NCBI GenBank assembly: GCA_025774615.1
Contig: JALGVQ010000148.1
Location: 1 to 9,643 of the forward strand
DNA length: 9,643 nucleotides
Direction of reading: 5' to 3'
Origin: a bacterium
GTDB lineage: Bacteria > Blakebacterota > Blakebacteria > Blakebacterales > Blakebacteraceae
Positions within the stretch are counted from its first letter, which is position 1, and each line of letters begins with the position of its first letter. A model generated the notes under the pieces. The model was not told where the DNA came from. It did not search any database and worked only from the letters and a program-made list of their open reading frames with translations. Shown one piece after another: positions 2,240-7,671 of the stretch. A program made the position numbers and the translations under genes.

Positions 2240-2278
2240 AGTCTGAATATCAATACCCCCTGACCAGAGAGGTACACT

Positions 2279-2851
2279 TTGACAGGCAAGCAATCATTGA
2301 GATGGCGGACGACACTCTTCACCATCCTGACGCTGTTGCTCCTGCCTCAGATCGGATCGGCACAGCAGAGGGATATGTCCGAACGCATGAGAGCCATGTG
2401 GCCGGAATTCGCCGGCTGGTCGCCGCAGGTTGGAGAAACAGCCATTGATTTCACTCTCGAGACACTCGAGGGTGAGACCTTTACGCTCAGCGAGTATTAC
2501 GGGGACAAACCGGTGGTTATCGAGTTCGGATCGTTCACCTGACCCCCTTTCAGGCAGAAGGCTTCTGCCGTTGAAGAGATCAGGGAAAAGTACGGTGACA
2601 AGGTCACTTTCATCATCCTCTACCAGCGCGAGGCGCACGCCACCCAGAGAATGGGCAGTACAGACCTCCACCCGGCGACAACTATCGTGATCGATGACAT
2701 GGAGAACACCATGCGGAAAGCGTACGGTGGTCTGCCGAACAGTGCCTTTATCATCGACAGGGGCGGTATTGTTGTCAAAAAGGAGAACTGGGCTGATATA
2801 AGTGCCTGGCCCGACATCCTCGACCAGTTACTTGCGGGAAACGGCCGATAA
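2279..2851 (+). CDS. exported deiodinase-like selenoprotein (Sec at codon 88, TGA read through)
   Basis: Read through the TGA at 2540-2542, this frame gives 190 residues with no other stop until TAA at 2849-2851. Residues 1-29 are a Sec signal peptide: basic start, hydrophobic LFTILTLLLL, cleavage after GSA. The mature part has a thioredoxin-fold start (VGETAIDFTLETLEGETFTL), then VVIEFGSFT-U-PPF. FGSxT-Sec-PxF is the active-site signature of iodothyronine deiodinases. A conserved-looking EAH (118-120) follows about 30 residues after U88, as in that family, and a thioredoxin-fold tail LPNSAFIIDRGG comes later. The start is TTG, chosen because AGAGAGG (2266-2272) sits six bases upstream; an in-frame TTG at 2297 is a weaker alternative. 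A SECIS-like hairpin follows the TGA. Substrate unknown: in bacteria a periplasmic redox or peroxidase role is as likely as dehalogenation. Alternatives are a nonsense-mutated pseudogene or a sequencing error, but the TGA falls exactly at the Sec site. Confidence 0.87.
2548..2576 (+). promoter_or_regulatory. bacterial SECIS-like hairpin after the Sec TGA
   Basis: GGCAGAA (2553-2559) pairs perfectly with TTCTGCC (2563-2569) around a three-base loop GGC. Below it TTTCA (2548-2552) pairs with TGAAG (2572-2576, one G-U pair), leaving GT (2570-2571) bulged. The apical loop begins 17 bases after the TGA and starts with G. Both fit what is known of SelB-binding elements in bacteria, which lie inside the coding region just downstream of UGA and carry a G early in the loop. 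The bulge is on the 3' side, unlike the 5' bulged U of the E. coli fdhF element. Drawn by eye, not folded by software. Confidence 0.68.
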
Positions 2852-2884: not shown

Positions 2885-2917
2885 CCCGCCAGGCCTCCTT
2901 GACCTGGCGGGTTCTCT
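2885..2917 (+). terminator. Rho-independent terminator of the selenoprotein gene
   Basis: CCCGCCAGG (2885-2893) and CCTGGCGGG (2903-2911) form a perfect nine-pair GC-rich stem with a nine-base loop, followed by TTCTCT. It sits 33 bases after the TAA at 2851 and before the convergent ferritin-like gene. The short T-rich tail makes it directional for the plus strand. Its presence at the 3' end of the read-through frame supports 2279-2851 being one gene. Confidence 0.7.
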
Positions 2918-2984: not shown

Positions 2985-3419
2985 TCAGTATGGGTACATG
3001 CCCTTCTTGATGCCCTCGAGATTGTCCAGAAGCGTGTTGTGCTTGTTCTCATCTGTAAGCAGGTACTCAAGGAGATATTGCGCGATGACCATCTTGGTGC
3101 CCTTGATATCTGCCAGCGACTCGGTGGCAAAGTCGACTGTCCTGCGCTCTATTTCGATGTGCCCTTCGATCAGGTCCCAGACTTCCAGAAGATCCTCAGG
3201 TGTGATCGCGACACTCTCAGCCTCGTAACAATCGATGATCATCTGCTGGACCTGATGGTGACGCTGGGAGTCGGTACGGATGATCTCCATGACGGTTCGG
3301 ATCAGGGGGTGACTGGTTTTCTCTACGATATCTCCGGTCGATTTGACCGCGGCATCCTCGATCTCCTGCCAGCGCTTCATATTACTGATGAGTTTCTCCT
3401 GCAATTCCTTTGTCGACAT
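2985..3419 (-). CDS. ferritin-like four-helix protein, function unknown
   Basis: 144 residues, almost entirely predicted helix, cytoplasmic. The pattern suggests a ferritin-like di-iron bundle: helix A with E19/E21 (WQEIEDAA), helix B with DSQRHH (50-54), helix C with E85/E89 (EGHIEIERR) and helix D with ENKH (124-127, an ExxH). In helix B the glutamate expected in DExRH is serine (D-S-Q-R-H), so the metal site may be altered. The start is the ATG at 3419: AAGGAG (3429-3434 on the complement) stands nine bases before it. The longer frame from the ATG at 3440 has no ribosome site and would contain this AAGGAG inside its own coding sequence. It faces rubrerythrin divergently, which fits a shared stress role. 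The exact family is not recognised and a di-iron centre is inference. Confidence 0.8.
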   Translation of the reverse strand: MSTKELQEKLISNMKRWQEIEDAAVKSTGDIVEKTSHPLIRTVMEIIRTDSQRHHQVQQMIIDCYEAESVAITPEDLLEVWDLIEGHIEIERRTVDFATESLADIKGTKMVIAQYLLEYLLTDENKHNTLLDNLEGIKKGMYPY

Positions 3420-3482
3420 CGTCGCGTGCTCCTTGTTCATGCAGTGATGTGATCAGATGGCGGTATGAATATATCGAACACC

Positions 3483-3611: not shown

Positions 3612-4112
3612 ATGTCCACGCTGGAAAATCTGAAGGATGCGTTCGCCGGTGAGAGTCAGGCCAACCGAAAATATCTGGCATTCGCGAAGAAAGCAGCGGA
3701 TGAGGGTTTCCCCCAGGTGGCGAAACTCTTCCGCGCCGTAGCAGAGGCTGAGACGATCCATGCCCACGCCCACCTGCGCGTGATGGATGGTATCGGGAAT
3801 ACGGCAACGAATCTGCAGGCAGCCATTGATGGTGAAGGCTATGAGTTCAAGGAGATGTACCCGGGATTCCTCACCGAGGCCGAGAGCGAGAACAACCAGC
3901 CGGCGATATTCTCATTCAAGAACGCCATGGCGGCCGAGGAAGTGCACCATGGTGAGTACACCGAGGCCCTCACGGCAGTCAACAGCGGGCAGGACCTTCC
4001 TGAGGGGAAAGTCTTCATCTGCCCGGTATGCGGGAACACGGCTCACGATGAACTGCCGGATCAGTGCTCGATCTGCGGGGTACCGGGAAGCAAGTTCTTT
4101 GAGGTAGTGTAA
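3612..4112 (+). CDS. rbr: rubrerythrin
   Basis: 166 residues, cytoplasmic. Residues 1-125 are the di-iron ferritin-like domain: GESQANRKY with E14, AEAETIHAHAH with E47 and H50, and AAEEVHHGEY with E109 and H112. Residues 133-166 are a compact rubredoxin-like domain with two CxxC pairs, C137/C140 (ICPVCG) and C152/C155 (CSICG), binding one iron. Rubrerythrins reduce hydrogen peroxide to water using electrons passed through the rubredoxin iron from NAD(P)H-linked donors, and are typical of anaerobes and microaerophiles. The ribosome site GAGGAG (3598-3603) lies eight bases before the ATG. The size is slightly shorter than classical rubrerythrin (about 190). All expected ligand motifs are present, so the protein should be functional. 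It diverges from the ferritin-like gene. Confidence 0.95.
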   Translation: MSTLENLKDAFAGESQANRKYLAFAKKAADEGFPQVAKLFRAVAEAETIHAHAHLRVMDGIGNTATNLQAAIDGEGYEFKEMYPGFLTEAESENNQPAIFSFKNAMAAEEVHHGEYTEALTAVNSGQDLPEGKVFICPVCGNTAHDELPDQCSICGVPGSKFFEVV

Positions 4113-6353: not shown

Positions 6354-7565
6354 TTACTGCTGCGTGGGATCCAGGATCCTGCCGATGAAGAGGACAGTGC
6401 CGGTCAGGTTCTCACGGATAAGGAAGAGAAAAGGACGATTCACCAGGAACATCGAGCCGCCCCGCTTCATGACGACCACAGTCGCTGCCGCAGCCTCGCT
6501 CCCCTCTTCATTGACTTCGATGAAGGCCTGGTGGACGACTTCACTGATGAAGAGCCCCCTGCTCCCGGTCATGCCGGAGAAATCAGCGTTATGGAATGCA
6601 GCGGGCATACCCATCGCCATGAGTATCTCAGCCATCTCGAATCGCGACGTGGTAGAGAACCGGGGTATTTGTATGGCGATACTCGAGGGCTCTTCCCTCT
6701 CGATCTCCCGCATCCAGCCGGTGACCCGCTCACCGGTGAGTATCTCTTCCAGACCGCTGATACCCAGATCCCGATCGGGCAGCAGGATGACCATGGAGAG
6801 ATCGTTGCCTTCATAGGGGAGTTCCAGGGCACTGAATCCCTCGAACGTCCTCGACCTGAACTCCGCCTCCCCGGTCATCATCGGCACGGTCACCACTCTG
6901 CCGGCGGTGACGTGGAAAGGAGATGCTCTCGTCTGTGAGGGATCGAACCCATATGCCCAGTCACCCTTGAAGTAGATGGCGTTGCAGAGGACCAGGGCCG
7001 AAGCCGGATCGAGGAGACCAGGGGTGATGAGTTCCCGAATCCTCTCTTCCGTCTCACGCTCCACCCAGGCATTGATTGAGCGACGGACGACCTCGGTCTG
7101 TCGGGCAAAATTGACCGGGAAGAGTACCGCACCGTAATGCGTCTCGACCAGGTCGAAGAACGACTCGAGGAAGGGATGATCCTCCTGATACCAGAGTGAA
7201 TTCGCCAGATGCAGGCGGATGTCACCCCTCCTCTGGATCGCGTCGAAATGATTCTGGAGACCGGACAGAGAGTGATGGAGTGTGGACTGCTCAGTCGGGA
7301 AATGAAGGACCTCTGCCATCTCCGCCGCGGTCCGGCCCCGCGCGCCTGCCCAGGCCATCGCGAGAGCGGTCGAGATACTGTACGGGGAAAAGAACAGGTT
7401 CCCTTCGATCCCAGTGAGATTCCGGTAAAGATCGAATCCGAACGCGGCGTTGCTCTCCGCTATTGCCTGCAGTTCCCCCTGCTGGGCGGAAACAGCAATC
7501 GGTGGCAGAAGCGATGTGAGCAACAAAGTCAGTGATATGGGCACTACCCTTGACAGCCGGCTCAT
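6354..7565 (-). CDS. secreted serpin (serine protease inhibitor, I4 family)
   Basis: 403 residues, within the usual serpin core size plus a Sec signal peptide (hydrophobic ISLTLLLTSLL, cleavage after VSA, about residue 27). Serpin landmarks appear in order: GNLFFSPYSISTALAMAWAG (55-74), LANSLWYQ, LVLCNAIYFKGDWAYGF (191-207), MSMVI-type strand (LSMVILLP), IPRFSTTSRFEM and the C-terminal RPFLFLIREN with GTVLFIGRILDP. The reactive-loop hinge E353-E-G-S-E-A-A-A-A-T362 is a canonical inhibitory hinge with small residues. The loop is about two residues shorter than in antitrypsin, placing the scissile bond near M366-K-R-G369, which suggests trypsin-like target proteases (inference). The start is the ATG at 7565, with AGGA upstream. 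The longer frame would add 30 residues ahead of the signal. Possible roles are defence against host or competitor proteases or control of own secreted proteases. Confidence 0.95.
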   Translation of the reverse strand: MSRLSRVVPISLTLLLTSLLPPIAVSAQQGELQAIAESNAAFGFDLYRNLTGIEGNLFFSPYSISTALAMAWAGARGRTAAEMAEVLHFPTEQSTLHHSLSGLQNHFDAIQRRGDIRLHLANSLWYQEDHPFLESFFDLVETHYGAVLFPVNFARQTEVVRRSINAWVERETEERIRELITPGLLDPASALVLCNAIYFKGDWAYGFDPSQTRASPFHVTAGRVVTVPMMTGEAEFRSRTFEGFSALELPYEGNDLSMVILLPDRDLGISGLEEILTGERVTGWMREIEREEPSSIAIQIPRFSTTSRFEMAEILMAMGMPAAFHNADFSGMTGSRGLFISEVVHQAFIEVNEEGSEAAAATVVVMKRGGSMFLVNRPFLFLIRENLTGTVLFIGRILDPTQQ

Positions 7566-7616
7566 GAGATTCCTTTCCTTACCATGTGTGTCCGGTCTCA
7601 CACAGGTAGCGAACCT

Positions 7617-7671
7617 GATCCGGCAATTGTGTAATTGAAATGCAAAAAAATACATACACCCGGGCCGGATC
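7617..7671. other. 8-bp inverted repeat flanking an A/T-rich segment upstream of the serpin
   Basis: GATCCGGC (7617-7624) and GCCGGATC (7664-7671) are perfect inverted copies, 39 bases apart, enclosing an A-run. Closer to the serpin, TGTGTG (7585-7590) and CACACA (7599-7604) form a second small stem. These fill most of the 108-base gap between serpin and PAP2 genes. On the minus strand the A-run becomes seven Ts just after the PAP2 stop, but without a proper short stem in front, so a terminator call is weak. No convincing promoter seen. Confidence 0.3.

Follow-up and report, generated by a model that had tools for sequence, protein, structure and literature searches.

The region 2279–2851 on the plus strand of the window (the whole stretch of 9,643 nucleotides analysed here) is confirmed as a genuine gene of a bacterial selenoprotein, which is presumably secreted. 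The product is a member of the PF00837 bacterial deiodinase-like selenoprotein family. The match to the family, the TGA in dozens of relatives, a covarying SECIS hairpin and dN/dS well below 1 place the reality of the gene far beyond chance. The protein lacks a segment near the active site, and this feature is absent from the account of the initial annotation.

Reading frame and family membership

The gene has a TTG start and a TAA stop (2849–2851), and encodes 190 residues including Sec. A Shine-Dalgarno-like AGAGAGG (2266–2272, plus strand), read directly in the sequence, is located 6 nt 5' of the TTG. The TGA at 2540–2542 is the sole in-frame stop before the TAA, and the coordinates given for this frame by the initial annotation are exact. 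Table-11 ORF calling stops at the TGA and splits the gene, as had been anticipated of gene callers. According to the base composition, the 102-codon open run 3' of the TGA has a chance of about 2%; the run alone is weak evidence, and other evidence is therefore needed. The codon-position G+C is alike on both sides, with a third-position value of 0.70 before the TGA and 0.70 after it.

The signal peptide, the active-site motif FGSFT-U-PPF (residues 83–91, 2525–2551), Glu-Ala-His (residues 118–120, 2630–2638) and the thioredoxin-like end are in a common register, as first described. The probable cleavable signal peptide (residues 1–28, ending in LLLLPQIGSA, 2279–2362) is judged by the look of the sequence and hydropathy. 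A basic start is followed by a hydrophobic stretch with its peak at about residues 11–25, and the cleavage site is likely located between IGSA and QQ. A terminator had been proposed after the TAA. A perfect 9-bp hairpin (CCCGCCAGG/CCTGGCGGG, 2885–2911, plus strand), read directly in the sequence, is present there, but its T-tail is weak and it is absent from the terminator-scan output; the hairpin is described here as a possible terminator.

The read-through protein matches PF00837 (T4_deiodinase, Pfam) with 59.3 bits against the curated cut-off of 27 (E = 4.7e-16), which bears out the proposed deiodinase family. Redoxin and AhpC-TSA are weaker overlapping Pfam matches. PF00837 is matched at E ≤ 0.001 by 20 of 20 aligned homologues, and a sequence search of the PDB ranks mouse Dio3 (1.2e-11) and Dio2 (9.6e-9) highest. 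The match to NCBIfam NF038285 'deiodinase family protein' has E = 1.4e-29 for the whole protein, with the best stretch at residues 49–122; its score of 103.6 bits is below the cut-off of 250. The catalytic network of Dio3 is present, and Ser167, Thr169, Sec170, Tyr197, Glu200 and His202 of Dio3 correspond to S85, T87, U88, Y115, E118 and H120, the last two within Glu-Ala-His (PMC7506546).

Sec and Cys deiodinase-like proteins were reported from bacteria by Zhang and colleagues in 2005 (PMC1088965), and 22 Sec deiodinase-like sequences were tabulated from the GOS set in 2008 (PMC2398784). The family is included in reviews, where its motif is given as UxxC (PMC9312934, PMC13188914). The class is therefore not new, and the kinship to marine-metagenome proteins mentioned in the initial annotation is correct (PMC1088965, PMC2398784).

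Probable selenocysteine at the TGA and the SECIS hairpin

The TGA at 2540–2542 (residue 88) very probably encodes selenocysteine. Among 70 distinct aligned homologues, the window protein included, the catalytic position is U in 65, C in two, D in two and S in one. Sec or Cys, as expected for this position, is thus found in 67 of the 70, and Ser or Asp only in three distant ones. In the same alignment, the Glu118 equivalent is invariant, His120 is present in 69 of 70 and Asp139 in 70 of 70. These counts are biased, since 49 of the 70 homologues were extracted by a motif requiring U or C and E-x-H; the 21 found without that motif comprise 16 U, two C and three others. Same-genus and same-family relatives have the TGA at the equivalent position, and two more family copies in the host genome (contigs C111 and C288) each carry a TGA. 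A sequencing error at the TGA is unlikely because other genomes carry the same TGA.

The host phylum is represented by four genomes in this analysis. In a wider set of 386 genomes, forms with Sec and with Cys were detected, along with a few that have Ser or Asp. A relative is matched in 17 of 18 genomes of one phylum. In the phylum of genome G275, 101 of the 392 genomes sampled have a relative, and in most cases one TGA lies within it. The C288 copy (G000:C288:8731-9492) is a third, divergent TGA copy with an N-terminal lipobox-like VPGC, and is possibly a lipoprotein. A tandem family pair (G140:C1:369295-370386) has Asp at the catalytic position in one member and TGA in the other. An Acidobacteriota homologue (L018, 1030–2571; 514 residues in total) has the deiodinase-like domain followed by a long in-frame C-terminal extension.

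A search for sel genes in the host genome, which is 82% complete with 3.3 Mb in 324 contigs, found selA (509 bits), selB (321 bits), selD (351 bits) and tRNA-Sec (66 bits, anticodon TCA). The host selD (G000:C273:7717-8634) also encodes a selenoprotein, like the selD of G001 and of G003, and its hairpin matches that of the deiodinase-like gene. Within the motif CAG-U-ASKLGP it carries an in-frame TGA, and is therefore a second independent case of TGA as Sec in this genome. TGA is the ordinary stop of five neighbouring genes in the window; thus, TGA is not reassigned genome-wide. Reading of the TGA as another residue such as Trp was rejected, as TGA stops these five genes and some relatives have Cys.

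The bacterial SECIS, a hairpin that follows the UGA and has a G in its apical loop, is located at 2553–2569 on the plus strand. It consists of a 7-bp stem (GGCAGAA/TTCTGCC) and the loop GGC (2560–2562); counted from the first base of the TGA, the stem starts 13 nt downstream and the loop at offset 20. The stem is 8 bp in the three nearest relatives. Among the four deiodinase genes, four of eight pairs change on both sides, whereas shifted partner registers give 0–1. In G000, G003 and G001, selD has a stem at the identical offset, with the loops GGC, GGC and GGA, respectively. When these three genes are added, seven of seven pairs covary and 98% of cells pair. The covariation score of the deiodinase and selD set is reached by 0 of 500 shuffles, which is no strict probability because the sequences are related. 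In a sample of the host genome's DNA, stems of at least 5 with the loop GGC at precisely this offset have a frequency of 1.3e-4 per position. The folding energy alone is not unusual against shuffles or against synonymous recoding, and the Rfam scan of the window detected no SECIS and no other credible RNA family. The support for the SECIS is comparative.

For the codons 3' of the TGA, comparison with the G002 relative gives a dN/dS of about 0.16 (dN 0.23, dS 1.4), and similar values were obtained against others. Purifying selection acts on these codons, which would not be expected of a dead 3' part. A plain stop, by which the TGA ends an 87-residue product or marks a pseudogene of a Cys-type redoxin, agrees with the termination of the table-11 ORF. 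It is extremely improbable, however, as the TGA is kept in relatives of many genomes, the sel genes are present, the SECIS pairs covary and selection continues 3' of the TGA.

The Sec machinery and three TGA copies in one genome, together with a covarying SECIS common with selD, establish deiodinase-family selenoproteins in a poorly sampled bacterial phylum, with a new member there. As a relative exists in about a quarter of the genomes of one other phylum, gene callers that stop at TGA likely truncate a common family.

The short linker and the predicted fold

The linker after Glu-Ala-His (2639–2671, plus strand) is about 19 residues shorter than in the nearest paralogues. According to the alignment, the spacing between His120 and Asp139 (the Asp of IVIDD) is 18 residues here, whereas it is at least 33 (median 38) in all the other 69 of 69 homologues. 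The gap is 19 codons, in frame, relative to G002, G001 and C111. The short form is found in one of the 70 homologues, the window copy only. In Dio3, the active-site lid lies in the equivalent region together with His219 and helix alpha-D, and Cys239 comes after them (PMC7506546). By this correspondence, the lost residues are those of the lid end and of the helix next to it.

The missing segment of the paralogues carries a Cys (RTCDEL or RTCDDL). In the G275 phylum, a Cys is located at nearly the same helix position in 21 of 24 relatives examined; several loci of this phylum (within L109–L138) also show EAHPxDGW, as in animal Dio3. A Sec/Cys mechanism is a reasonable inference for the Cys-bearing relatives, because in plant GPX5 the active-site Cys has as its partner a Cys of the corresponding helix (PMC7506546). 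The window protein has no Cys in its whole sequence, and thus Sec must act alone.

The AlphaFold model of the window protein shows a confident thioredoxin fold (mean pLDDT 86). The linker which replaces the helix is poorly ordered (pLDDT about 53) with no helix modelled there, and the model of the C111 paralogue has a helix (145–159) at the equivalent place. Structure matches of the window model were obtained with Dio2 (Z 16.0, r.m.s.d. 2.7, 143 aligned), with the 1-Cys peroxiredoxin AhpE (Z 17.3, r.m.s.d. 2.0, 133 aligned) and with ResA-type proteins (Z about 17–18), where matches within 1 Z of each other were counted as tied. In the tree, the window copy is located beside the G002/G001/C111 group (support 97/92) and not inside it, so that an older paralogue is the probable reading.

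The lidless form, seen in a single metagenome-assembled contig, may represent a new variant. An assembly error, in which the short linker is an artefact and the true gene is an ordinary family member, is suggested by the fragmented state of the draft genome (324 contigs, 82% complete), in which the form is known from one contig, and none of the loci examined provides the short form from a second genome. The gap length is a multiple of three, however, and the flanks are in frame and conserved, so that we regard such an error as rather improbable. The loss of the helix could also mean reduced function. The gene may be a degenerating paralogue in which UGA readthrough could persist, activity would be reduced or abolished by the helix loss, and the C111 and C288 paralogues would do the job. 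The two other TGA family members in the host genome and the restriction of the missing segment to one of 70 are in line with this explanation, but the gene retains its frame, its SECIS, the active-site residues and a low dN/dS, and the predicted fold is confident. Degeneration is therefore quite unlikely in our judgement. Tentatively, and with slightly less than even confidence, we propose a lidless, Cys-free deiodinase branch, in which a clean in-frame deletion would have converted what was presumably a Sec/Cys enzyme to one that works with a single selenium, has an open pocket and accepts a new range of substrates. The natural pair with and without the lid in one genome offers a direct way to test the role of the lid and the helix Cys in deiodinase-fold enzymes.

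Proposed reaction and comparison with known systems

The protein would be an exported thioredoxin-fold PF00837 selenoprotein which acts as a periplasmic peroxidase-like single-Sec reductase with external thiol reduction. We consider this somewhat probable as a whole. SelB would bring Sec-tRNA to the UGA at 2540–2542, guided by the hairpin at 2553–2569, and the product would then be exported to the periplasm. The Sec88 selenolate would sit in the conserved network of Ser85, Thr87, Tyr115, Glu118 and His120, and attack a small substrate that is oxidized or electrophilic, with a hydroperoxide or a comparable oxidant as the likeliest one. An external thiol partner is proposed to reduce the oxidized Sec because the protein has no Cys. 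With the lid anchor and the helix lost and the pocket open, a broad or protein-bound substrate is likelier than a thyroxine-like ligand. The peroxidase chemistry is suggested by the fold and by analogy; the peroxiredoxin motif PxxxTxxC is absent, with Ile81 at position -7 and Ser85 at -3 relative to Sec88. In the literature searched, no enzymatic assay of any bacterial family member was found.

The initial annotation had proposed a secreted Sec-dependent redox or dehalogenating enzyme. Sec is upheld and secretion is plausible, but dehalogenation as such is not supported, and a redox enzyme agrees better with the sequence, since the thyroxine-binding lid residues and the helix are missing. A true reductive dehalogenase would use a periplasmic Sec to abstract iodine or bromine from halogenated aromatics, like vertebrate deiodinases on thyroid hormone. 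The FGSxT-U-PPF motif and the Ser, Thr, Tyr, Glu and His equivalent to those of Dio3 (PMC7506546) are shared with such an enzyme. However, the His219 region and the distal Cys are missing in addition to the lid residues and the next helix (PMC7506546). Reduction of DIO1 by glutathione requires a Cys located two residues N-terminal to Sec (PMC9141512), and this proximal position is Phe86 here. Bacteria of this kind are not expected to have thyroid hormones (PMC1088965), and no obvious halogen-metabolism gene was found among the neighbours. The dehalogenase is thus unlikely. As thyroxine-like binding is unlikely without the lid and helix, we prefer a peroxidase-like reductase to a true deiodinase or dehalogenase.

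No functional clue was found in the gene neighbourhood. An M14 carboxypeptidase gene adjoins the family gene in C111 and G001, and is not beside the window copy. Just downstream in the window are a gene for rubrerythrin (3612–4112) and, on the reverse strand, a gene that matches no Pfam family (2985–3440); an oxidative-stress setting is possible. The window also contains a full-length serpin gene with a signal-peptide-like start (6354–7655). The viral-contig scan gave no relatives.

Among the known systems, the bacterial deiodinase-like selenoproteins of the Sargasso Sea and GOS sets (PMC1088965, PMC2398784, PMC13188914) resemble the window protein in the PF00837 match, the thioredoxin fold, Sec or Cys at the TGA position and the bacterial SECIS just 3' of the UGA. 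The lid anchor and helix, about 19 residues, are absent in the window copy and kept in all the other homologues compared. The UxxC given for the family in the two reviews (PMC9312934, PMC13188914) also differs from the UPPF of the Cys-free window protein. The model of NF038285 is 347 positions long, and the match to it is partial in length and below the cut-off.

The vertebrate DIO1–3 (PDB 4TR3, 9H48) are alike in FGSxTUPPF, the equivalents of the catalytic network and the predicted fold (Dio2, Z 16.0). They are membrane-anchored, whereas the window protein is probably exported and its bacterial SECIS is inside the coding region. The Trp207/Asp211 lid, His219 and helix alpha-D of the vertebrate enzymes are all absent, and neither the proximal nor the distal Cys (Cys124 and Cys194 of DIO1; PMC9141512) is present in the window protein. 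The 1-Cys peroxiredoxins of the AhpE/BCP type are among the closest folds together with the ResA-type proteins (Z about 17), and have a single chalcogen active site. Their PxxxTxxC is not found in the window protein, whose best sequence family is PF00837. The thioredoxin and ResA proteins have a CxxC (or UxxC) redox pair, and the window protein has UPPF instead.
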